Of a stretch of DNA of 64,000 nucleotides, positions 14,581 through 60,087 are shown piece by piece; within the stretch, counting starts at the first letter, position 1, and the number at the start of each line of letters is the position of its first letter. The notes under the pieces were generated by a model. That model did not search any database. It was given only the letters and a program-made list of their open reading frames with translations, and was not told the origin of the DNA. This stretch comes from Cellulomonas taurus (GTDB lineage Bacteria > Actinomycetota > Actinomycetes > Actinomycetales > Cellulomonadaceae): positions 2,852,001 to 2,916,000 of the forward strand of contig NZ_CP051884.1 in NCBI RefSeq assembly GCF_012931845.1, given 5' to 3'. Position numbers and translations under genes: made by a program.

Positions 14581-15762
14581 TCACTGCAGGAGCTGCAGCA
14601 CGCTCTGCGGGATCGACTTGGCCTGCGCGAGCATGGCCGTACCGGCCTGGGACAGGATCTGGGCGCGGGTGAACGAGACCATCTCCTTCGCCATGTCGGT
14701 GTCGCGGATCCGGCTCTCCGAGGCGGTCAGGTTCTCGACCGCGACGTTGAGGTTGTTGATGGTGTGGTCGAAGCGGTTCTGGACCGCACCCAGCTGGGAA
14801 CGGGTCTTCGACACGTCGGTGATCGCGGCGTCGATCAGGTCGATCGCCTCGGTCGCCCCGGACTTCTGGGTGAAGGTCGGGGAAGCGGCGGCCACGGCGG
14901 AGGCGGACGCGTCCGCTGCCGGGGTGGTGCCGGTGATGACCAGGCCGTCGGTGGCGTCGAACGCCGCCGTCACGCCAGCACCGAAGGTCTTGGTGAGGGC
15001 GGTGTTCAGGGTGGCCAGGTCGGCGGTGCCGGCGCCGGTGGCACCGGTGCCCTCGAACTTCACCGAGGCGAGGTCCAGGGACTTGGAGCCGATGGAGATG
15101 GTGCCGTTCAGGCCCTTGAGCGAGGTGTCCGCGTCCAGGCTGGCGATGGCGACCGAACCGGCGGTGCCGGCCACGGCGTTGGTGACGGTGGCAGCGGTGG
15201 CGTCGGAGGCCACGGCGGTCACGTTGATGCCGTTGACACCCAGACCCTCCGAGGACAGCCCGTTGGCACGGGTCAGGTCCACGGTGATCTTGTCCTGCGC
15301 CGAGGTGTTGGCGCCCACCTGGAAGGTGCCGGAGTACTTGCCGTCCAGCAGCTTGGTGCCGTTGAACTGCGTGGTGTCGGAGATCCGGGTCAGCTCGGTC
15401 TTGAGCTGGTCCATCTCGTCCTGGATGTTGCCCTTGGCGGTGTCGGACAGACCACCGTCGTTGGAGGCCTGGACGGACAGGGTCCGCATCCGCTGCAGGA
15501 TGGAGTGGGTCTCGGTCAGGGCGCCTTCAGCGGTCTGCACGACCGAGATGCCGTCCTGAGCGTTACGCACTGCCTGCTGGGTGCCACCGATCTGGGCACG
15601 CAGGCCCTCGGAGATGGCCAGGCCGGCTGCGTCGTCCGCCGCGCGGTTGATCCGCAGGCCGGAGGACAGCTTCTCCAGCGAACGGCTCAGGTCGTTCTGC
15701 GTGTTGGACAGGTTGCGGTACGAGTTCATCGCCGCGAGGTTCTGGTTGATCGACAGACCCAT
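14581..15762 (-). CDS. fliC: Flagellin
   Basis: Filament subunit. The conserved N-terminal D0/D1 region is MGLSINQNLAAMNSYRNLSN, SRSLEKLSSGLRINRAADDA, GLAISEGLRAQIGGTQQAVR. The central variable domain (about residues 150-290) is rich in Ala, Thr, Gly and Ser. The C-terminus is RSQLGAVQNRFDHTINNLNV, ESRIRDTDMAKEMVSFTRAQ, AGTAMLAQAKSIPQSVLQLL. It has 393 aa. A GGAGG ribosome site precedes the ATG, with a FliA-type promoter about 60 bp upstream. It is the only flagellin gene in the window. The nearby glycosyltransferases raise the possibility of glycosylation. Confidence 0.97.
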   Translation of the reverse strand: MGLSINQNLAAMNSYRNLSNTQNDLSRSLEKLSSGLRINRAADDAAGLAISEGLRAQIGGTQQAVRNAQDGISVVQTAEGALTETHSILQRMRTLSVQASNDGGLSDTAKGNIQDEMDQLKTELTRISDTTQFNGTKLLDGKYSGTFQVGANTSAQDKITVDLTRANGLSSEGLGVNGINVTAVASDATAATVTNAVAGTAGSVAIASLDADTSLKGLNGTISIGSKSLDLASVKFEGTGATGAGTADLATLNTALTKTFGAGVTAAFDATDGLVITGTTPAADASASAVAAASPTFTQKSGATEAIDLIDAAITDVSKTRSQLGAVQNRFDHTINNLNVAVENLTASESRIRDTDMAKEMVSFTRAQILSQAGTAMLAQAKSIPQSVLQLLQ

Positions 15763-15818: not shown

Positions 15819-15845
15819 ACATCGGCCGGGCGGGAACCCGGCTGA
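15819..15845 (-). promoter_or_regulatory. Predicted FliA/WhiG-type promoter of flagellin
   Basis: On the minus strand TCAG (15845-15842), a 15-nt spacer and GCCGATGT (15826-15819), preceded by CAAAACCC. It matches the general FliA -10 GCCGATAA and the other three flagellar promoters here. A small GGTGGCCCA/TGGGCTCACC hairpin follows in the leader. Confidence 0.75.
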
Positions 15846-15866
15846 GGGTTTTGGGGGCGGAAGTTC

Positions 15867-16724
15867 TCAGACCGCGAAGGTCTGGTGCTCCGCGGGGGTG
15901 TGCTGCGTCGGCACCGTGTGCGGTGCGGCGGCGGCGGACATGGCGGCCCGGCTGGCCACCGCGGCGAAGTAGGACCGGCGACGGCGCTCGGCCACGCCGT
16001 CCGGGCGGGCACCGGTCGGCACCAGCTCCGGGTCGAGGCTCGCGTTCAGCCCGTCCTTCATCAGACCGAGGCCCTCGGTGCGCAGCTGGCTGATCCGGGA
16101 CTGGGTGACGCCCAGTTCCTCCGCCAGTTCGGCCACCGACCGGTCCTGCAGGAACAGGCCCTCGATCACTAGGCGCAGTCGCTCGGGCAGCGTCTCGACC
16201 GCCGCCCGCAGGTAGCGCAGCCGCTCCCCCATCAGGACGTTGTCCTCCGGGCCGGGCGCCTCGTCCCGGACCAGGTCGGCGACCGGGTGCACGGTGGCGT
16301 CCATCGACAGCACCCGACGCTCGGCGTCCTGGCGGGCCTGGTCCACCGCTGCCACATCGGTGCCCAGCTCGCTGGCGAGCTCGGTGCGCGACGGGGTGCG
16401 GCCCAGGGTCGCGGTCAGTCGGTCGCTGGCGGCACCCAGTTCACGGGCGCGGTGCCGGGCGCCACGGCTGGCCCAGTCCATCGAACGCAGCTCGTCGATC
16501 AGCGCGCCCCGGATCCGCAGCGCGGCGTACCGGCTGAACGGCACCCCGGTCTCCGGGTCGTAGGCACGGGAGGCCAACACCAGGGCGAGGTGCCCGGCCG
16601 AGACCAGGTCCTCCCGGCTGACGGTGGCGGGCACCCGGGCGAGGACCTCGCTGACGTGGTAGCCCACGAGCGGGAGGTTCGCGACGACCAGGTCGTCGGC
16701 GGCGGGGGCGGCTGCGTTGTTCAC
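15867..16724 (-). CDS. fliA: FliA/WhiG-type flagellar sigma factor
   Basis: Sigma factor for late flagellar promoters. Region 2 is visible in DLVSAGHLALVLASRAYDPE, TGVPFSRYAALRIRGALIDE and LRSMDWASRGARHRARELG, the FliA/WhiG pattern. Region 3 follows (RLTATLGRTPSRTELASELG). Region 4 is LPERLRLVIEGLFLQDRSVA with the helix-turn-helix ELAEELGVTQSRISQLRTEG. It has 285 aa with a Pro/Ala-rich tail. The start is a GTG at 16724 with a weak GAGAA ribosome site. It is divergent from flgN and shares an intergenic region with CRP-like and GTCCGAtT sites. Confidence 0.93.
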   Translation of the reverse strand: MNNAAAPAADDLVVANLPLVGYHVSEVLARVPATVSREDLVSAGHLALVLASRAYDPETGVPFSRYAALRIRGALIDELRSMDWASRGARHRARELGAASDRLTATLGRTPSRTELASELGTDVAAVDQARQDAERRVLSMDATVHPVADLVRDEAPGPEDNVLMGERLRYLRAAVETLPERLRLVIEGLFLQDRSVAELAEELGVTQSRISQLRTEGLGLMKDGLNASLDPELVPTGARPDGVAERRRRSYFAAVASRAAMSAAAAPHTVPTQHTPAEHQTFAV

Positions 16725-16779
16725 GATCCGGTTCTCGGCCCCGCGCTGAATGGCCTTGAGCGTTTCCCAGGAACTTCAT

Positions 16780-16846
16780 CGCTTGTCCGATTCCTCCCCG
16801 AAATACCGGAATTTCGGACCTATCCGGTCGACGAATCGGACAAGCG
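16780..16846. promoter_or_regulatory. Nested inverted repeats upstream of fliA (candidate operator)
   Basis: A perfect 14-bp inverted repeat, CGCTTGTCCGATTC at 16780-16793 and its complement at 16833-16846, encloses a second one, CCGAAAT-N6-ATTTCGG at 16798-16817. Two direct GTCCGAT boxes follow at 16903-16910 and 16912-16920. The interval 16725-17025 (301 bp) contains no gene, only these sites, a CRP-like site and the flgN promoter. Confidence 0.55.
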
Positions 16847-16877
16847 ACCCCATTCCTCCGGGTGACACCCGGTTGGG

Positions 16878-16893
16878 TGTGATGCACGTCACA
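16878..16893. promoter_or_regulatory. crp site: Perfect CRP/GlxR-type binding site between fliA and flgN
   Basis: TGTGATGCACGTCACA, an exact TGTGA-N6-TCACA dyad. Actinobacterial CRP/GlxR proteins recognise this pattern. It lies about 160 bp upstream of the fliA start codon and about 100 bp upstream of the expected flgN transcription start, so cAMP could control both halves of the flagellar regulon. Confidence 0.7.
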
Positions 16894-16953
16894 GTGACAG
16901 TCGTCCGATCCGTCCGATTCACCTGGGAGGACCCTGGGATTCGCCGGGACTGT

Positions 16954-16980
16954 TCACATCCCTCACCGGACGACCGATGA
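16954..16980 (+). promoter_or_regulatory. Predicted FliA/WhiG-type promoter of flgN-flgK-flgL
   Basis: TCAC (16954-16957), a 15-nt spacer and ACCGATGA (16973-16980). The predicted leader is about 40 nt before the flgN ATG. It fits the same consensus as the flbD, flgB and flagellin promoters. Confidence 0.7.
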
Positions 16981-17025
16981 GCAGGGGGTAGCACCCACAC
17001 CACCCCAGCGAAGGAGACCCGCGCG

Positions 17026-17508
17026 ATGGCGCTCAGCGAGCTGTCCGACGTCCTGTGGACCGAGCGACACCTGCTCGAACTCCTGCTCTTCAAGCTGGAG
17101 GAGGAGCAGCTGCTGCTGACCAGCGGCCGCACCCGCTGGCTGGCCCACGCCACCCGCGAGGTGGAGACGGTGCTGGACCAGATCCGCGACGCCGAACTCG
17201 GCCGCTCGGTCGAATCCGATGCCGTCGCCTTCGAGTTGGAGCTGCCCGCCGGCTCCTCGCTGGCCGCCCTGGCGGAGCACGCCCCCGCCCCCTGGGACGA
17301 GCTGCTGCGGGCGCACCGCGACGCCTTCGTCACCCTCACCACGGAGATCGCGCAGCTCGCCGACGGCAACCGCGAGCTGCTCGCGATGAGCCACCGCGCC
17401 ACCCAGGAGACCTTGCTCTCACTGCAGGACTCCGTGCAGACCTACGACGGCCAGGGCAACTCCGCCGCCTCGGACCGCACCGCCCAGCTGATCGACCGGT
17501 CGTTCTGA
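17026..17508 (+). CDS. flgN: FlgN-like chaperone for FlgK/FlgL
   Basis: Export chaperone for the hook-filament junction proteins. It is a 160-aa all-helical protein with the FlgN-like start LSDVLWTERHLLELLLFKLE, EEQLLLTSGRTRWLAHATRE. A GGAG site precedes the ATG. It is the first gene of the rightward operon and sits 24 nt before flgK, the normal location for flgN. Weak sequence conservation makes context part of the evidence. Confidence 0.88.
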   Translation: MALSELSDVLWTERHLLELLLFKLEEEQLLLTSGRTRWLAHATREVETVLDQIRDAELGRSVESDAVAFELELPAGSSLAALAEHAPAPWDELLRAHRDAFVTLTTEIAQLADGNRELLAMSHRATQETLLSLQDSVQTYDGQGNSAASDRTAQLIDRSF

Positions 17509-17532: not shown

Positions 17533-18969
17533 ATGAGCACCTTTTCCGGACTCGGCACCGCGCTCTCCTCGCTGATCGCTCAGCGGCAGGGGCTGGAGGT
17601 CTCCGGCCAGAACGTCGCCAACGCCAACACCGTGGGGTACACCCGCCAGCGGGCCACGATGTCGTCCCTGCCGGCCTCGTCGGTCCCCTCCATGTTCGCC
17701 ACTTCCTCCGGGGTCGGCCAGGGGGTCTTCACCAGCGGCTTCGAGCGGATGGGCGACATCTTCGTCGACGCCCGGCTGCGCACCGAGACCTCCGGCGCCG
17801 CCTACCTCAAGCAGATCAGCGCCTCCTACACCCAGCTGGAGGACGCGGTCGGCGAGCCCGGGAAGACCGGGCTGTCCAGCCAGCTCACCGAGATGTGGAC
17901 CGCGTGGTCCGAGGCCGCCAAGTCCAGCAACACCTCCGCCTCCCGGTCGGTGCTCCTGGAGCGCTCGACCGCGGTCACCAACCGGATCGCCACCCTCTAC
18001 AACGGTGCGCAGACCCAGTGGAACCAGACGCTGACCACGACCCAGTCGCTGGTCACCCAGGTCAACACCACGGCGAACAACCTGGCCGACCTGAACAACC
18101 GCATCCTGTCGATCACCAACGCCGGCGGTTCGGCCAACGAGCTGATGGACGCCCGCGACCAGCTGATCACCCAGCTCTCCGGCCTGGTCGGCGCCTCGGT
18201 CCGGATCCAGGAGAACGGCACCGTCGACGTGATGGTCGCCGGCAACGCCCTGGTGAACGGCGCCAAGGCGAACGCCCTGGAGGTCACCGGGGCGAAGAAC
18301 TTCGACCAGGCGATGGCCGGTGAACAGGTGTCGGTGGTCTGGGCCAAGAACCAGGCGAGCGCCGGACTGGACGGCGGCCGGGTCGCCGGGCTGCTGACCG
18401 TGCTCGCCCCGCCGAACGCCACCGGCACGGGCGGGATGCTCACCGAGGCCGCCACCGGCTACAACGCATTGGCCACCCAGATCGCCACGCAGGTGAACGC
18501 GCTGCACTCCACCGCGTACACCGAGGCCGGTTACGCCACCGCGACCACCGCCGGGGACTTCTTCGCCCTGGAGGCGGGCAAGCCCGCCGCCCTCGGCCTG
18601 AAGGTCGCGATCACCGATCCGAAGGACATCGGACTTGCGGCGGCGGGCGCGGGTGCGCTGGACGGGTCGATCGGCGACAAGCTCGCCGCCCTGGCCACCG
18701 ACACCACCGGCCCGAACGCCACCTGGTCCGCGGCCGTGGTCCAGCTCGGCGTGCGCGCCGCCAGCGCGTCCTCCCGGTCCTCGGTCGCGGAGGCCGCTCG
18801 GGCCACCTCCGAGGCACAGCAGCTGGCCCAGACCTCGGTGGACACCGACGAGGAGAGCATCAACATGCTCGCCTACCAGCGCGCCTACGAAGGCGCCGCC
18901 CGGGTGCTCACCGCCATCGACGAGATGCTCGACACGCTGATCAACCGCACGGGGGTGGTGGGCCGATGA
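17533..18969 (+). CDS. flgK: FlgK, hook-filament junction protein 1
   Basis: Joins hook to filament. The N-terminal motif is FSGLGTALSSLIAQRQGLEV, SGQNVANANTVGYTRQRAT. The C-terminus DEESINMLAYQRAYEGAARV, LTAIDEMLDTLINRTGVVG is the typical FlgK end. It has 478 aa. The middle shows the family's FlgK/FliD-like region (NLADLNNRILSITNAGGSAN). It overlaps flgL by ATGA. Confidence 0.96.
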   Translation: MSTFSGLGTALSSLIAQRQGLEVSGQNVANANTVGYTRQRATMSSLPASSVPSMFATSSGVGQGVFTSGFERMGDIFVDARLRTETSGAAYLKQISASYTQLEDAVGEPGKTGLSSQLTEMWTAWSEAAKSSNTSASRSVLLERSTAVTNRIATLYNGAQTQWNQTLTTTQSLVTQVNTTANNLADLNNRILSITNAGGSANELMDARDQLITQLSGLVGASVRIQENGTVDVMVAGNALVNGAKANALEVTGAKNFDQAMAGEQVSVVWAKNQASAGLDGGRVAGLLTVLAPPNATGTGGMLTEAATGYNALATQIATQVNALHSTAYTEAGYATATTAGDFFALEAGKPAALGLKVAITDPKDIGLAAAGAGALDGSIGDKLAALATDTTGPNATWSAAVVQLGVRAASASSRSSVAEAARATSEAQQLAQTSVDTDEESINMLAYQRAYEGAARVLTAIDEMLDTLINRTGVVGR

Positions 18970-19850
18970 CCGCGATCGGACGGGTGACGCATCTGACGGT
19001 GCGCAACTCGACGCTGAACAACCTGCAGGACAATCTGAAGAAGATGGCGGACCTGCAGTCGCAGGCGTCCTCGGGGAAGACCATCAACCGTCCCTCGGAC
19101 GACCCGGCCGGTGCCTCCGACATGCTCCGCCTGCGCGACGAGCAGCGCATGCTGGACCAGTACGACCGGAACGCCGCCGACGGCAAGGCCTGGCTCACCA
19201 CGGTCGGCGACGCCCTGACCACCTCGCTGGCCGACGCCCGCCGGGTCCGGGTGCTCACCCTCCAGGGCGGTGACGCGGCCCTGGGCCAGACCTCCCGGAT
19301 CGCGCTCGCCGAGGAGATCGACGGACTGAAGGCCGACCTGCTGCGCCAGGCGAACACCAGCTACCTCGGTCGCAGCGTCTTCGCCGGGACCACCGCAGGC
19401 GGCGCGTTCGCCGACGACGGCACCTTCCGCGGCGTCGCCAGCGGCAGCGTCACCCGCACGGTCGGTGACGGCACCACTGTCCGGGTGGACTCCACCGGCA
19501 GCGCCGTCTTCGGCGACGGGCCCGACTCGGTGTTCGCCCTGCTCGACACGATCTCCGCCACGCTGCGCGCCGGAGGCGACCCGACCGACCAGGTCGATGC
19601 CTTGGACGGCCACATCACCGCGATGCTCACCGAGGTCGCCTCGGTGGGTGCGCGCACCAACCAGGTCGAGACGGCGCAGAGCCGGATCGTCGACCAGACG
19701 CTGAACAGCAAGACGCGTCTGTCGGAGATCGAGGACATCGACCTGGCGCAGATCATCCTGGACCTGCAGACCCAGGAGGTCGCCTACAAGGGCGCCCTCG
19801 GGGCCGCCGCCAAGGTCCTCCAGCCGACTCTCCTGGACTACCTGCGATGA
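18966..19850 (+). CDS. flgL: FlgL, hook-filament junction protein 3
   Basis: Second junction protein, flagellin-like. The N-terminus contains VRNSTLNNLQDNLKKMADLQ, SQASSGKTINRPSDDPAGAS, and the C-terminus has the flagellin-like SRIVDQTLNSKTRLSEIEDI, DLAQIILDLQTQEVAYKGAL. It has 294 aa, the usual size. It is coupled to flgK upstream and to fliW downstream by ATGA overlaps. Confidence 0.95.
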   Translation: MTAIGRVTHLTVRNSTLNNLQDNLKKMADLQSQASSGKTINRPSDDPAGASDMLRLRDEQRMLDQYDRNAADGKAWLTTVGDALTTSLADARRVRVLTLQGGDAALGQTSRIALAEEIDGLKADLLRQANTSYLGRSVFAGTTAGGAFADDGTFRGVASGSVTRTVGDGTTVRVDSTGSAVFGDGPDSVFALLDTISATLRAGGDPTDQVDALDGHITAMLTEVASVGARTNQVETAQSRIVDQTLNSKTRLSEIEDIDLAQIILDLQTQEVAYKGALGAAAKVLQPTLLDYLR

Positions 19851-20257
19851 CCATGACGCTTGAGACCACGCCGCTCGTGCTGCCCACCACGCTGCACCTG
19901 ACCACGCCCATGCCGGGCCTGGACGAGCACACCGAGTTCGAGGTGTCCGCCCTGGACGAGTCCGGATCGCTGTACGCCCTGCGCTCGGCCCCCGAGGGCG
20001 CCCGACCGGTGCGGCTGTTCGTCGTCGACCCGGAGCCGTACTTCCCGGACTACACCCCGCGGATCGGCGCCGACGTCCACGCCCAGCTCGGTGCCGACCA
20101 GCTCCGGGTCCTGGTCGTGGTCCGTCCGGCGCAGGGCACGCAGCCGCCCACCGCCAACCTGCTCGCCCCGCTGCTGGTCGACCCGGCCACCGGCGCTGCG
20201 ATGCAGACCGTCCTCACCGACGACTGGCCGCTGCGCGCGCCGCTCGGCCGCCCGTGA
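19847..20257 (+). CDS. fliW: FliW, flagellar assembly factor
   Basis: In other bacteria FliW binds flagellin and antagonises the translational repressor CsrA. The 136-aa product has the FliW pattern: LPTTLHLTTPMPGLDEHTEF, LRSAPEGARPVRLFVVDPEP, YFPDYTPRIGADVHAQLGAD, then a PPTANLLAPLLVDPATGAAM segment equivalent to the family's T-x-N-L-x-A-P-x-x-x-N. The usual neighbour csrA is not found here or elsewhere in the window; an EAL/HDOD gene follows instead. Confidence 0.88.
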   Translation: MTMTLETTPLVLPTTLHLTTPMPGLDEHTEFEVSALDESGSLYALRSAPEGARPVRLFVVDPEPYFPDYTPRIGADVHAQLGADQLRVLVVVRPAQGTQPPTANLLAPLLVDPATGAAMQTVLTDDWPLRAPLGRP

Positions 20258-20274
20258 CCCTCCCTGGAGAAGCG

Positions 20275-21474
20275 ATGACCACCGTCGGAGTCGGCACCGT
20301 CACCGTCCTGCGCCAGCCCGTGGTGCAGCCCGACCGCTCGGTCTACGGCTACGCCGTCCAGGTCCGGGTCACCGGGACCGACGGTCGCCCGCTGCCCGAC
20401 GAGCTCGCCGAGCAGCACGCCGACGCCGAGTACGCGGCCCTCGACCTCTCCGGTCTGGCCGCCGACCGGCTCGTGCTGCTCCGCGGCACCGTCGGTGTGC
20501 TCGCCGGGACCACCTCCATCTGGGGTGACCCGGAACGGCTGATGCTGGAGATCACCCCGACGCTGGCCCGGCACCCCGAGATCGACGCCCTGGTCGCCCT
20601 GGCCCAGCAGCGCGGCTCCCGGCTCGCGCTGGCCGACTACGACGGCTCGGCACCGCAGGACCGCCTGCTCGACCGGGTCGCCCTGGTCAAGATCGACCTG
20701 GCCCGCTACGACGACCAGCTCGCCCTGCTGGTCGACCGTGCCCACCACGCCGGTGCCGCGGTCATCGCCGAGCGCGCCGACACCACCGAGCGGATCGCCC
20801 GGGGCATCGACCTCGGCGCCGACCTGCTCCAGGGCCCGATGTTCCAGCGCGACCAGACACCCGTGCGCCGCGCGTTCAACGCCGGCGAGCTCCAGTGCCT
20901 CGAACTGCTGCGCATCCTGTCCGCCGACCAGGTGGACCAGAACGCCGTCGTCACCACCGTGGCCGCCGACCCCGAGCTGTCCATGCGGGTGCTGCACCTG
21001 GTGAACTCCTCCGCCTTCGGCCTGCGCACCGAGGTCGACTCCGTCCGCCAGGCGGTCGTCCTGGTCGGCCCCCGGCAGCTGCACGCCCTGGCCATCGCCT
21101 CCCTGATCGACGCCCGACCCAACACGGTCGCCGCGCTGTGGACCGTGCTCACCCGCGCCATGACCTGCCGCACCCTCGCCGGTGACGACGCCGGGTACAC
21201 CGTCGGACTGCTGTCGGCGGTCGCCGCGCAGCAGGCCATCGAGCTCACCGACCTGGTCGAGCGCACCGGCATCTCCGACCAGCTGTCCGCCGCCCTGCTG
21301 CGCCACGAGGGTCACCACGGCCACGTGCTCGCCGCGGTGCTCGCCCACGAGGAGAACGACTCCGACGCGGTCGCCGCCACCGGGCTGGAACCGTGGGACG
21401 TGGCGCACGCCTACCTCGCGGCGGTGCCGCAGGCGCTGGCGACGGCGACGTCGTTGGCGTTCGGGGGGAACTGA
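20275..21474 (+). CDS. EAL/HDOD-domain signalling protein in the flgN-flgK operon
   Basis: A 399-aa protein of the YuxH type: a degenerate EAL-like half (YGYAVQVRVTGTDGRPLPDE, LVKIDLARYDDQLALLVDRA, GADLLQGPMFQRDQTPVRRA) followed by an HDOD half (LELLRILSADQVDQNAVVTT, SMRVLHLVNSSAFGLRTEVD, VLVGPRQLHALAIASLIDAR). The E-x-L catalytic motif is replaced by AVQV, so c-di-GMP hydrolysis is unlikely and a regulatory role is inferred. The ATG at 20275 has GGAGAAG; a GTG at 20254 is less likely. It is the last gene of the operon. Confidence 0.85.
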   Translation: MTTVGVGTVTVLRQPVVQPDRSVYGYAVQVRVTGTDGRPLPDELAEQHADAEYAALDLSGLAADRLVLLRGTVGVLAGTTSIWGDPERLMLEITPTLARHPEIDALVALAQQRGSRLALADYDGSAPQDRLLDRVALVKIDLARYDDQLALLVDRAHHAGAAVIAERADTTERIARGIDLGADLLQGPMFQRDQTPVRRAFNAGELQCLELLRILSADQVDQNAVVTTVAADPELSMRVLHLVNSSAFGLRTEVDSVRQAVVLVGPRQLHALAIASLIDARPNTVAALWTVLTRAMTCRTLAGDDAGYTVGLLSAVAAQQAIELTDLVERTGISDQLSAALLRHEGHHGHVLAAVLAHEENDSDAVAATGLEPWDVAHAYLAAVPQALATATSLAFGGN

Positions 21475-21793: not shown

Positions 21794-22471
21794 CTAGGAG
21801 TAGTGCCCGATCGGTGCGTACTCACGCCAGTCGGCGAAGTGCTGCACGGTGGCCGACGAGGGGTCGCAGTCGCCTGTCACAGTCTGGTTGCCACGCACCC
21901 ACAGGGCGGGCGGGTCGAGACCGAGGTCCGTGAGACGAGCGATCTCAGCCTCCGTCAACGGGCTGAGGGTGGTGTCGACCAAGATTCCTTGGCGCTGATC
22001 ATTGTCGTAATCGCGTGATTTACCGGTGTCCTTGCTGACCTCGTCGGTGGTGTACCCACACGAGCGAACGACGATCGAGCCATCAGGATTGTCCGTCACC
22101 GACTGTACGGTCTGCGGCGCGGGGCCGATCGACACCCACCGGTATTGCGGCGGCGCGGGCCTGAGGTCGGGTTCGCGGGCCGGGTCGAAGTACTGGGTGT
22201 ATTGCGCGAACTCCCGGGTGTCGGTGAGTTCGGACCAGGCCCAGATCATGTTGGTGGTGCGCATGATCTGGACGGCCAAATGGTCTTCGAACGGGGCCGT
22301 AGCATCCAGAGCCGGTTCGAGCGGGGCGATGTCCGCGACCGGGTACGGCGGACCCGTGGGCGAAGGCTCAGCTGTCGTGTCATCGGTGCACGCAGCCAGC
22401 ACGAGCGCGGCGATCACGGCCACGACGGCGATCGCTCGTCGCCCGGCGCGCAGTGGCATGGGCCGGGTCAT
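21794..22471 (-). CDS. Lipoprotein, second copy of a tandem pair
   Basis: A 225-aa secreted lipoprotein of unknown function: basic N-terminus, hydrophobic stretch and lipobox LAAC with Cys28, then an acidic segment and a compact domain (IMRTTNMIWAWSELTDTREF, FDPAREPDLRPAPPQYRWVS, VVRSCGYTTDEVSKDTGKSR, NQTVTGDCDPSSATVQHFAD). It is nearly identical to the preceding gene over its C-terminal third, even at the DNA level (about 145 nt from 21801). The pairwise Cys residues suggest a disulfide. It is the last gene of the WXG operon, coupled by ATGA. Confidence 0.85.
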   Translation of the reverse strand: MTRPMPLRAGRRAIAVVAVIAALVLAACTDDTTAEPSPTGPPYPVADIAPLEPALDATAPFEDHLAVQIMRTTNMIWAWSELTDTREFAQYTQYFDPAREPDLRPAPPQYRWVSIGPAPQTVQSVTDNPDGSIVVRSCGYTTDEVSKDTGKSRDYDNDQRQGILVDTTLSPLTEAEIARLTDLGLDPPALWVRGNQTVTGDCDPSSATVQHFADWREYAPIGHYS

Positions 22472-23133
22472 GAGTAGTGGCCGATCGGTGCGTACTCACG
22501 CCAGTCGGCGAAGTGCTGCACGGTGGCCGACGAGGGGTCGCAGTCGCCTGTCACAGTCTGGTTGCCGCGCACCCACAGGGCGGGCGGGTCGAGACCGAGG
22601 TCGGTGAGACGAGCGATCTCCTCGTCAGTGAGCGGGCTGAGGGTGGTATCGACCAGGAGACCTCGCTGCTGGGCACTGACATAGTCGCGTGGTTCACCGG
22701 TGTCCTTGCTGACCTCATCGGTGGTGTACCCGCACGAACGCACCACTGTTGAACCGTCGGCGTTGTCGGTCACCGACACAATCACCCGAGGTTTCGGACC
22801 GATGGCGATCCAACGGTATTGCGGTGGCGCGGGCCTGAGGTCGGGTTCTCGCGCGGGGTCGAAGTACTGGGTGTATTGCGCGAATTCCCTGGTGCCGATC
22901 AGCGTCGACCACGCCCCGATCATGCTGGTCGTGCGCATGATCTGCACCGCCGGGTGGTCCTCGAACGGGGCAGCGGCATCCAGGGCCGGTTCGAGCGGGG
23001 CGATGTCCGCAACCGGGTACGGCGGACCGGTGGGCGATGGCTCAGCGGTCGAGTCATCGGTGCACGCAGCCGATACCAGGGCGGCCGCGAGCATGAGCGC
23101 GGTCAGGATGCGTCGGCGGGTGCGGGCGGTCAT
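22468..23133 (-). CDS. Lipoprotein, first copy of a tandem pair
   Basis: A 221-aa lipoprotein with lipobox SAAC (Cys24), paralogous to the next gene throughout the mature region. Differences cluster in the middle (GAWSTLIGTREF, GPKPRVIVSVTDNADGST, GEPRDYVSAQQRGLLV), while the last 70 residues are almost unchanged. Such tandem accessory copies are common among immunity-type or receptor-type proteins next to secreted effectors, but the role here is not known. It overlaps the 758-aa WXG gene by ATGA. Confidence 0.85.
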   Translation of the reverse strand: MTARTRRRILTALMLAAALVSAACTDDSTAEPSPTGPPYPVADIAPLEPALDAAAPFEDHPAVQIMRTTSMIGAWSTLIGTREFAQYTQYFDPAREPDLRPAPPQYRWIAIGPKPRVIVSVTDNADGSTVVRSCGYTTDEVSKDTGEPRDYVSAQQRGLLVDTTLSPLTDEEIARLTDLGLDPPALWVRGNQTVTGDCDPSSATVQHFADWREYAPIGHYS

Positions 23134-25406
23134 GGCATGTCTCCCCGGTTCACCGAATGGCGGTCGCCGTCCTCGTCGATGGTGGTGACGTCGTACATGT
23201 CGTCGGTGGTGGGGCTGTTGAGCGCGGTGGCTTTGTCTCCGTACTCGGTCATCGCCTCATTGACCAGGGTCTGGGCGGTGGTGGGGTAGGCGGGGTCGAT
23301 CTGCTCCCACGGGCCGACTAGGCCCTGGTCGAGTGCGTTCTGCAGGGTGGCGTGCCCTTGGTCGATCCCGGCCTGCTCGGTGATGTTTCCGGTGGCGGAT
23401 TCGCGGATGGCGGTGATCTCCTCCGGGGAGAGCATGTCGCCCCAGTGGTCTTGGGCCAGCAGGTCGAGGTTCCCGGCGGCGATGTCGATCAGCCAGTCCA
23501 CGGCTGCTGAGCCCGTGCTGACCCCGGGGATGATCCCGATGATTCGCATCATGGTGTCCAGGTCCTGACGGGACTGGGCGTCGAGGGCTTCGGCGTGGTG
23601 GGCTGCCTCGGCGGTACAGGACGCCTGCGTCAGCCCGTACACACCTCCCAACCCGCGCAGCAGCTTCTCAGCCGTCTCCCGATCCGGGTGACCCGCCCCG
23701 GTGACGTGTGCGAACACCTGTTGTCCGTAGTCACCGACGGCAGCACCGATCGTCCCCAGTGCTGCCAGGTCAGTGGTCGCGATCCCCAACACCCGGGACA
23801 GGTTCCCCAACGGCACCCCGAACGCCGGGACCTCCACCAACCGGCCATCGATGAGGACCGTTGCCTTGTCCTGCCCATCTTCCGTTTCGGCCACCGTCAC
23901 CATGCCGCCGAGATCGGCACCGATCTCCGGCACAAAGGTGGCCAGCGCCTGCGCGATGTCGAGTTGCGCGGCACCGGACATGGTCCCGACCTGCAGGTGC
24001 TGGTTCCCGCCGAGCCGTTCGGTGGCCAGGGCAGCGAACTGCACGATCCCGGTCCAGGTCGCGCCCAGCGGGTCGTTGCTGTGCGCCTGGAGCCCTTCGG
24101 AGCTGTTCACGATCGCGTCGATCAGCGCTGCGGGTCCCTCGAACCCGTCATCACCCCAGTCGTAGCGCCCGAACCAGTAGTCGCTGACCCCGTCCGCGCC
24201 CAGCAGGTCCATGGCTTGTGCGGGGATGGCGGTCAGCTGGTCGAAGATCGCGCCCATCAGGGTGGGCACCGACCCGCCGAGGTTCCGGCGCACCTCGGCG
24301 TCGTACTCGGCGCGGGTGTACCCGTAGAAGTCGATGGTCGGCAGTGAGGCCCGGGTGATCAGCGCGAACCGCTCGGGGTCACCGGCCCGGATCTGCTCGA
24401 CCCGGGTGAACGCGCCCACGGCGACCTGGGGGTTCAGTCCGGGGGTCCCCAGCAGGGACGGGACGATCATCGAACGGGCGTAACCGTCCATGGTGTCCAC
24501 CAGGCCGGTGCCCCAGCCCTGCGCGGTCGGGGCGTCCCAGGTGGTCGACGCGGTGGCCAGCCCCACACCGAGCAGCCCGGAGAGCGTCGCGGCACTGACC
24601 CCGCCGCGGAATGCGTGGTGCAGATCGTCGGCGGTGGCGAACTCGGCCATGAAGCCGGTCAGACCCTCGGGTCCCAGCCCGTCGTAGAACCGGGCCATCA
24701 CCTCATCGTCGGCGGAGTACATCATCAGGAACTGCGCGACCAGGTCGTAATCGGCGCCCGTGCGCTTGTCGGAGCCGATCCGCTCCAGCAGGTCCTCGAC
24801 CACGTCGTCGACGTTCCTCGGTGTGCCACCGGACCGGTAGGCGATCTGGGTCCACGCGGTGGCACCCGGTCCCGGAGCTGTCTGCAAGGCGGCGATGATC
24901 CGCGCGTCCAGCGCCCGGCGCCGCTCCCCGAGCTCCTCCAGCAGTCGTTCCTGGAACCGGACGGCGGTCCGCGCCTCAGCTGTCTCTCGCTCCAGGGACG
25001 CCGCCCGGAGGTGACCCGCGGAATCGGCGAGGTCCACCGTCGAGCGAGCCGACGTCAGCTGCGCCTGATACGCGGCCACTTCCTGCTCACCGTTGCTCAA
25101 CCGCCACCGGATCGCATCACCCTCCTCTTGCAGCAGGAACAACCCGTTGGCGTAATCGATCAGCGCCTGCGACACCCGCGCCCACCCCTGCGCCGTGGCC
25201 TCGGCCAGCTGCTCGACCGACACGCACGACGCCACCATCGCCTGCGCGCCCTGCCCGGCCCACACCTGATCGCTCACCCGGCCCCGCGCAGCACCAGCGA
25301 TCTGACGACGCTCCAGCACCTCGGCCGCGACATCCTCGATCTGCCACCCGGCGCTCCGCACCACCGACACATCACCCCGGTCCGGGAACCGGTCAGCCTC
25401 GCTCAC
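23130..25406 (-). CDS. Large WXG-motif protein, probable type VII secretion substrate
   Basis: A 758-aa protein without signal peptide. A helical N-terminal region holds a WXG motif (SDQVWAGQGAQAMVASCVSV, Trp49), an IDYANGLFLLQEEGDAIRWR helix and a long coiled coil (LERETAEARTAVRFQERLLE). The rest is a large alpha-helical body with repeated Asp/Gly-rich turns (GYTRAEYDAEVRRNLGGS, SDYWFGRYDWGDDGFEGPAA) and ends in DMYDVTTIDEDGDRHSVNRG. I recognise no toxin or nuclease motif. The GTG at 25406 overlaps the upstream WXG gene (GTGA), which supports export as a pair. Function is unknown. Confidence 0.8.
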   Translation of the reverse strand: MSEADRFPDRGDVSVVRSAGWQIEDVAAEVLERRQIAGAARGRVSDQVWAGQGAQAMVASCVSVEQLAEATAQGWARVSQALIDYANGLFLLQEEGDAIRWRLSNGEQEVAAYQAQLTSARSTVDLADSAGHLRAASLERETAEARTAVRFQERLLEELGERRRALDARIIAALQTAPGPGATAWTQIAYRSGGTPRNVDDVVEDLLERIGSDKRTGADYDLVAQFLMMYSADDEVMARFYDGLGPEGLTGFMAEFATADDLHHAFRGGVSAATLSGLLGVGLATASTTWDAPTAQGWGTGLVDTMDGYARSMIVPSLLGTPGLNPQVAVGAFTRVEQIRAGDPERFALITRASLPTIDFYGYTRAEYDAEVRRNLGGSVPTLMGAIFDQLTAIPAQAMDLLGADGVSDYWFGRYDWGDDGFEGPAALIDAIVNSSEGLQAHSNDPLGATWTGIVQFAALATERLGGNQHLQVGTMSGAAQLDIAQALATFVPEIGADLGGMVTVAETEDGQDKATVLIDGRLVEVPAFGVPLGNLSRVLGIATTDLAALGTIGAAVGDYGQQVFAHVTGAGHPDRETAEKLLRGLGGVYGLTQASCTAEAAHHAEALDAQSRQDLDTMMRIIGIIPGVSTGSAAVDWLIDIAAGNLDLLAQDHWGDMLSPEEITAIRESATGNITEQAGIDQGHATLQNALDQGLVGPWEQIDPAYPTTAQTLVNEAMTEYGDKATALNSPTTDDMYDVTTIDEDGDRHSVNRGDMP

Positions 25407-25669
25407 GACCCGGCACCCGCCAACGCCGCATCCGCCTGCTGCATCACCGCGACAGCCGCACGCGCCTGAGCACCCAACCCGGTCCAACTCTCAGCCAGGT
25501 TCGACTGCTGGTCGTACACCATCGTGAACGCCTGCCCGAACGCCTCCGCGACACCGGCCGACCCGCACGCACCGATCCCGGGACGCAGCACCGACATCCC
25601 CATCCCGGCCCGGGACAGCTCACCCGCCACCGCTGTCATCTCGCCCGAGTCCAGCACCAGCTCGCCCAC
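25403..25669 (-). CDS. WXG100-like small protein
   Basis: An 88-aa helical protein (VGELVLDSGEMTAVAGELSR, AEAFGQAFTMVYDQQSNLAE, SWTGLGAQARAAVAVMQQAD) with a W-T-G motif at residue 62, the WXG100/ESX helix-turn-helix signature. The GTG at 25669 has GGAGGG 8 nt upstream; the longer open frame to 25705 lacks support. It heads the operon and probably forms a heterodimer with the 758-aa WXG protein for type VII secretion. No ESX ATPase gene is in the window. Confidence 0.75.
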   Translation of the reverse strand: MGELVLDSGEMTAVAGELSRAGMGMSVLRPGIGACGSAGVAEAFGQAFTMVYDQQSNLAESWTGLGAQARAAVAVMQQADAALAGAGS

Positions 25670-25782
25670 GACACACCCTCCTGCCTGCGCACTGAATCGG
25701 CTCAACGCGCGCGAGGAAGCTATCGCCGCACGGTCGGTGATGGGCGCTGAACAGCAGGAATTGAGTGCGGTCTTGTCGGATT

Positions 25783-59968: not shown

Positions 59969-60087
59969 CCGTGCCTCCCTCGTCCTGCGTGCCCTGCTGG
60001 GATCAACCGCGTCATCGTACGACCCGAATCACACGGGTGTCATTCGTGCCGGTCAGCGTTCCGGCCCCACGGCGGGCCGCTGCTGGC

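Follow-up and report, generated by a model that had tools for sequence, protein, structure and literature searches.

Control of motility by cAMP is classic in enterobacteria. In E. coli and Salmonella, cAMP-CRP activates flhDC, at the top of the flagellar hierarchy, via a TGTGA-N6-TCACA site. Among actinobacterial counterparts with described regulons are GlxR of Corynebacterium glutamicum and Crp (Rv3676) of Mycobacterium tuberculosis, and to our knowledge neither organism has flagella. GlxR recognizes the consensus TGTGA-N6-TCACA, and shifting a natural site towards this consensus led to stronger binding and activation (PMC7999487). GlxR acts as a repressor at some genes and as an activator at others (PMC7026483, PMC7999487), with ptsI-ptsG among the repressed targets (PMC7026483).

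Flagellar switch-on in actinobacteria is little studied outside zoospore-forming Actinoplanes. A study of the flagellar cluster of Actinoplanes missouriensis reportedly found sigma-28-type promoter words similar to those that we see in Cellulomonas. A 2023 survey of actinobacterial flagella does not mention Crp (PMC10746217), and among open-licence papers we found no published report linking GlxR, Crp or cAMP to flagella in Cellulomonas or in actinobacteria.

The Cellulomonas locus described here resembles each of these systems in part. As at flhDC, cAMP-Crp is predicted to act at the top of the hierarchy through TGTGA-N6-TCACA; however, the site lies at fliA itself, divergent from flgN, with no FlhDC step implied, the organism is Gram-positive, and activation is a prediction. 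The locus shares with the GlxR and Rv3676 regulons an orthologous regulator with an identical recognition helix, the operator consensus (PMC7999487), and citrate synthase among the sites of this genome, but in Cellulomonas the target for which we saw the strongest conservation is a flagellar sigma gene. Like the A. missouriensis cluster, it is actinobacterial and has a FliA-type sigma factor, whereas the loci of the Actinoplanes group that were examined have no Crp dyad upstream of fliA, and control there is developmental, for zoospores.

A Crp-type dyad between fliA and flgN

The window, meaning the whole 64-kb stretch of Cellulomonas taurus DNA that was analysed, contains the exact dyad TGTGATGCACGTCACA in the gap between two divergent flagellar transcription units. 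An exact TGTGA-N6-TCACA dyad, placed between the flagellar sigma gene and a divergent hook-junction operon, had been claimed by the sequence-only reading. Its sequence and coordinates were confirmed, and so was its placement, with fliA carrying sigma-70 regions 2-4 and flgN (PF05130) being followed by flgK, flgL and fliW. The features of the region, in window coordinates, are as follows.

16878 to 16893, no strand: predicted Crp/GlxR operator TGTGATGCACGTCACA, an exact TGTGA-N6-TCACA dyad
16860 to 16870, no strand: second dyad GGGTGACACCC on the fliA side of the Crp site, a possible repressor operator (from its sequence, with a related dyad in other lineages)
15867 to 16724, minus strand: fliA, flagellar sigma factor of the sigma-28 type and proposed main target (Pfam Sigma70 r2/r3/r4)
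17026 to 17508, plus strand: flgN, first gene of the divergent flgN-flgK-flgL-fliW operon (PF05130; conserved beside fliA)
17533 to 18969, plus strand: flgK, hook-filament junction protein (PF22638)
18966 to 19850, plus strand: flgL, hook-filament junction protein (Flagellin_N/C, and its position after flgK)
19847 to 20257, plus strand: fliW, flagellin regulator (PF02623)
14581 to 15762, minus strand: fliC, flagellin, downstream of fliA (Flagellin_N/C)
16732 to 16760, minus strand: predicted sigma-28-type promoter of fliA, CTCA-N17-GCCGAGAA (spacing to the start kept in relatives)
16953 to 16981, plus strand: predicted sigma-28-type promoter of flgN, TTCA-N16-ACCGATGAG (CCGATAGG word enriched in relatives)
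15821 to 15846, minus strand: predicted sigma-28-type promoter of fliC, CTCA-N16-GCCGAT (sequence match)

The dyad is separated by 161 bp from the start of fliA and by 140 bp from that of flgN. It is the sole exact dyad in the window, and only one further match, at position 60018, is found at two or fewer mismatches. The whole genome (3,437,431 bp) holds nine exact dyads compared to approximately 0.4 expected from base composition, and 34 sites at one or fewer mismatches compared to 12 for a reversed control pattern. For the 301-bp fliA-flgN gap, base composition predicts approximately 3e-5 exact dyads by chance.

Elements resembling CTCA-N15-17-GCCGAT, which we take to be the actinobacterial sigma-28 consensus, precede fliA, flgN and fliC. 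Within the genus set, CTCAAG shows the highest enrichment of any 6-mer in the fliA upstream region, and CCGATAGG also ranks near the top. The GTG start of fliA follows 7 nt after the end of its sigma-28-type promoter, a spacing conserved in relatives; therefore, the autoregulated, sigma-28-driven fliA transcript is probably nearly leaderless.

Two neighboring arrangements were also observed. The flgN operon continues after fliW, with overlapping ends, into a gene for an EAL-HDOD protein (20254 to 21474; weak EAL match), possibly a c-di-GMP-related or scaffold protein. Further on, a tandem pair of closely similar genes for putative lipoproteins adjoins genes for a 785-amino-acid DUF6571 protein and a small, 100-amino-acid protein (21794 to 23133, minus strand, with 23130 to 25487 and 25403 to 25705), a layout that recalls a cassette of secreted effector and immunity protein.

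Conservation among flagellated relatives

The fliA upstream regions that we read came from 80 named loci and from three samples of genomes: 61 from the genus, 396 from the order and 394 from the class. fliA was found in 45 of the 61 genomes of the genus. The dyad was exact in 39 of these, had one mismatch in four and was absent from two, which belong to a clade of gut-type MAGs; in shuffled sequence, an exact site arose in 0.02% of cases and a site with one or fewer mismatches in 0.7%. Loss of the dyad from close relatives had been named beforehand as an observation that would count against a Crp site, and 43 of the 45 flagellated congeners keep it. These 43 dyads are centred 161 to 217 bp before the matched fliA start. 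The N6 spacer takes 28 distinct versions among the 45 best matches, and, position by position, the half-sites hardly vary and the flanks are near background, which argues for a protein-binding site and not general similarity. The nearest named locus is that of C. denverensis, whose FliA is 92% identical.

Outside the genus, the dyad occurs in Actinotalea and in Jonesia- and Timonella-type genera of the same family. Demequina-type genomes carry it in 8 of 11 cases at one or fewer mismatches and in all 11 at two or fewer, and it is present in all four flagellated members of a further family. Other flagellated families in the order and class samples have no dyad at one or fewer mismatches, except for an exact one in a single Pseudonocardiales MAG (L069); none was found upstream of fliA in the Actinoplanes or Microbacterium loci examined. 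Xylanimonas and most Sanguibacter likewise have a fliA upstream region with no dyad at this threshold. On the FliA tree, dyad presence requires 8 changes compared to 29 with shuffled labels, and its distribution suggests losses in Sanguibacter, in Xylanimonas/Puerhibacterium and in the clade of gut-type MAGs. Loss of Crp was rejected as the cause of the missing sites, since all 20 genomes examined for it, some having the site and some lacking it, encode an orthologue; thus, it is the wiring that changes and not the regulator.

Two Cellulomonas genomes have a second fliA (G312:C1:2403258-2404076 and G283:C1:1463259-1464077; loci L185 and L186) that is 58% identical to the query and has no Crp site upstream. 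This suggests a second flagellar system or a sigma factor under other control.

The regulator, its signal and other predicted sites

The genome encodes a single PF00027 (Crp/Fnr family) protein. It aligns end to end with M. tuberculosis Crp (275 bits) and C. glutamicum GlxR (265 bits) and scores 91 bits against E. coli CRP. The recognition helix is identical to that of GlxR and M. tuberculosis Crp, and the stretch QLVGASRETVNKALADFA is identical to that of the latter. By these comparisons, the protein is the predicted GlxR/M. tuberculosis Crp orthologue. The site brings together an exact dyad, above-chance frequency and conservation, and a Crp/GlxR protein, encoded by this genome, whose recognition helix matches. 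Judged from sequence, TGTGATGCACGTCACA is almost certainly a functional Crp operator.

A search for class III adenylate cyclases detected one enzyme, closest to Rv1264 of M. tuberculosis, which is pH responsive. For comparison, C. glutamicum likewise has just one cyclase and contains cAMP while growing on glucose (PMC7026483). Given these two points, “carbon status” is a guess about the input, and the earlier proposal that cAMP acts here as a carbon-status signal was not supported. What holds of that proposal is a Crp/GlxR-type site under selection in the flagellar control region, together with one GlxR orthologue and one cyclase.

The predicted regulon was read from individual loci of this genome. 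Exact dyads precede a citrate synthase gene and a menaquinone-pathway-type reductase gene, which would fit a GlxR regulon. One-mismatch dyads precede genes for a cellulose-type LPMO and a glucuronate isomerase. Together, the citrate synthase, LPMO and glucuronate isomerase sites lend modest support to a carbon-status input.

A further exact dyad (G000:C1:41126-41141; locus L003) lies upstream of a 4HB-MCP chemoreceptor gene, at 82 bp from the matched start of that gene. None of the genus homologues found of this gene has a site at one or fewer mismatches; therefore, this site is species specific or accidental, and a wider motility regulon through the chemoreceptor was rejected. A malic-enzyme gene was dropped as a candidate target because it lies more than 1 kb from its site.

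Target gene and mode of control

Across relatives, the dyad keeps a distance of 183 ± 19 bp to fliA (range, 158 to 226 bp) compared to 230 ± 80 bp to flgN (range, 80 to 452 bp). We consider fliA to be the likely main target. In the model that we favor, to which we give a probability of roughly 60%, cAMP-loaded Crp would bind the TGTGATGCACGTCACA dyad and most likely activate a vegetative-sigma promoter of fliA located between the dyad and the sigma-28 promoter of fliA. FliA from this initial transcription would then amplify its own nearly leaderless sigma-28 promoter and switch on flgN-flgK-flgL, fliC and the rest of the flagellar genes. In this way, cAMP would govern entry into the flagellar cascade, at the position that flhDC occupies in enterobacteria.

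The weakest step in this model is the vegetative promoter. The sole recognizable fliA promoter is the sigma-28 one, and the dyad lies about 160 bp upstream of it. Because this is too far for the usual direct contact, and because the distance to fliA is steadier than that to flgN, we infer a vegetative promoter in between, as we infer the sign of control and the input signal. We found no consensus sigma-70 hexamers for a vegetative -10 or -35 and no -10 recurring at a fixed distance from the dyad. A fixed -10, as in a class I or class II Crp promoter with the operator centred near -41 or at -61 to -93, was not supported, since TANNNT shows no positional enrichment to the left or right of the dyad; a TATG approximately 22 bp after the dyad occurs in the nearest clade only. 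We also count against this model that Sanguibacter, Xylanimonas and more distant flagellated actinobacteria swim without the dyad.

Since GlxR represses many targets, the sign of control could be the opposite. A true Crp/GlxR operator would then act in repression, with cAMP-Crp blocking fliA, flgN or both and motility rising as cAMP falls. The precedent of ptsI-ptsG (PMC7026483), the lack of a recurring -10 at activator spacing and the position between divergent genes, where a single bound dimer could interfere with both of them, are all in keeping with repression, but the dyad lies 140 to 160 bp from both start codons and overlaps neither recognizable sigma-28 promoter. We regard repression as improbable, though a serious competitor. 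It is rather unlikely that the operator serves mainly the flgN-flgK-flgL-fliW side and leaves fliA unaffected. The dyad is slightly closer to flgN in this genome, and flgN is divergent from fliA wherever the dyad occurs and flgN could be checked; however, the wide range of distances to flgN among relatives stands against the narrow one to fliA. Finally, short dyads do arise randomly in 3.4 Mb, and the exact site before the chemoreceptor gene is not conserved, but a chance dyad, or a site for another dyad-binding protein with no motility role, is very hard to reconcile with the approximately 3e-5 expected in the gap, with retention at the same place in 43 of 45 congeners with differing spacers, and with the single Crp/Fnr-family protein of this genome.

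Other signals accompany the Crp site. Towards fliA, a GGGTG-N4-CACCC dyad starts 12 to 13 nt after it in about a third of lineages (L229, L101, L108, L245, L247 and L236), taking the form GGGTGACACCC in this window, and the exact GGGTG/CACCC dyad is found in 6 of 30 lineages compared to 0.05 in shuffles. If Crp sits at -41.5, the -10 region would fall within this dyad, where a repressor might naturally bind, and it is a possible repressor operator. TCCGATT and GTCCGA words recur on both strands around the Crp site (16781 to 16846 and 16908 to 16921), as in CGCTTGTCCGATTC, which reappears in inverted form as GAATCGGACAAGCG; 12 of 30 lineages have GTCCGA between the dyad and fliA, compared to 3.1 expected.

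On the flgN side, the fliA-flgN region of several other Cellulomonas shares a resemblance with Streptomyces CebR, a cellobiose-responsive LacI-family regulator whose operator consensus was used for comparison (PMC4898821). AAGCGCTT dyads of the LacI-family type occur in 8 of 32 cases compared to 0.0 expected, and TGGGAGCG-type, LacI/CebR-like half-operators in 9 of 32 compared to 0.5 expected. Unlike the Streptomyces operators, most of the Cellulomonas matches are partial, and neither type is present in this window. The LacI/CebR-type operators lie 220 to 255 bp before fliA (L228, L229, L236, L238, L240, L102, L147 and others).

These observations invite a broader and decidedly speculative proposal. 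In the Cellulomonas-Demequina lineage, the GlxR regulon would directly include flagellation, by way of fliA. In some species, LacI/CebR-type operators in this intergenic region would act alongside the Crp site, and whether cells swim would then depend jointly on cAMP and on free cello-oligosaccharides. The proposed connection with polymer use draws on the other predicted targets in one genome and on the LacI-type operators of those other species. If true, control by cAMP and cello-oligosaccharides would be a polymer-foraging switch of a kind not described for Gram-positive bacteria.

The site itself appears to give a known regulator a new target, with wiring that is restricted by lineage. It predicts that cAMP helps to decide when Cellulomonas and its close relatives build flagella. 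A deeply conserved Crp operator at a flagellar sigma gene offers a concrete and cheaply testable entry point into that decision. If confirmed, the enterobacterial link between cAMP and motility would also be wired in Gram-positive cellulose degraders, via a different target gene, and its clear gains and losses could be compared across genera.
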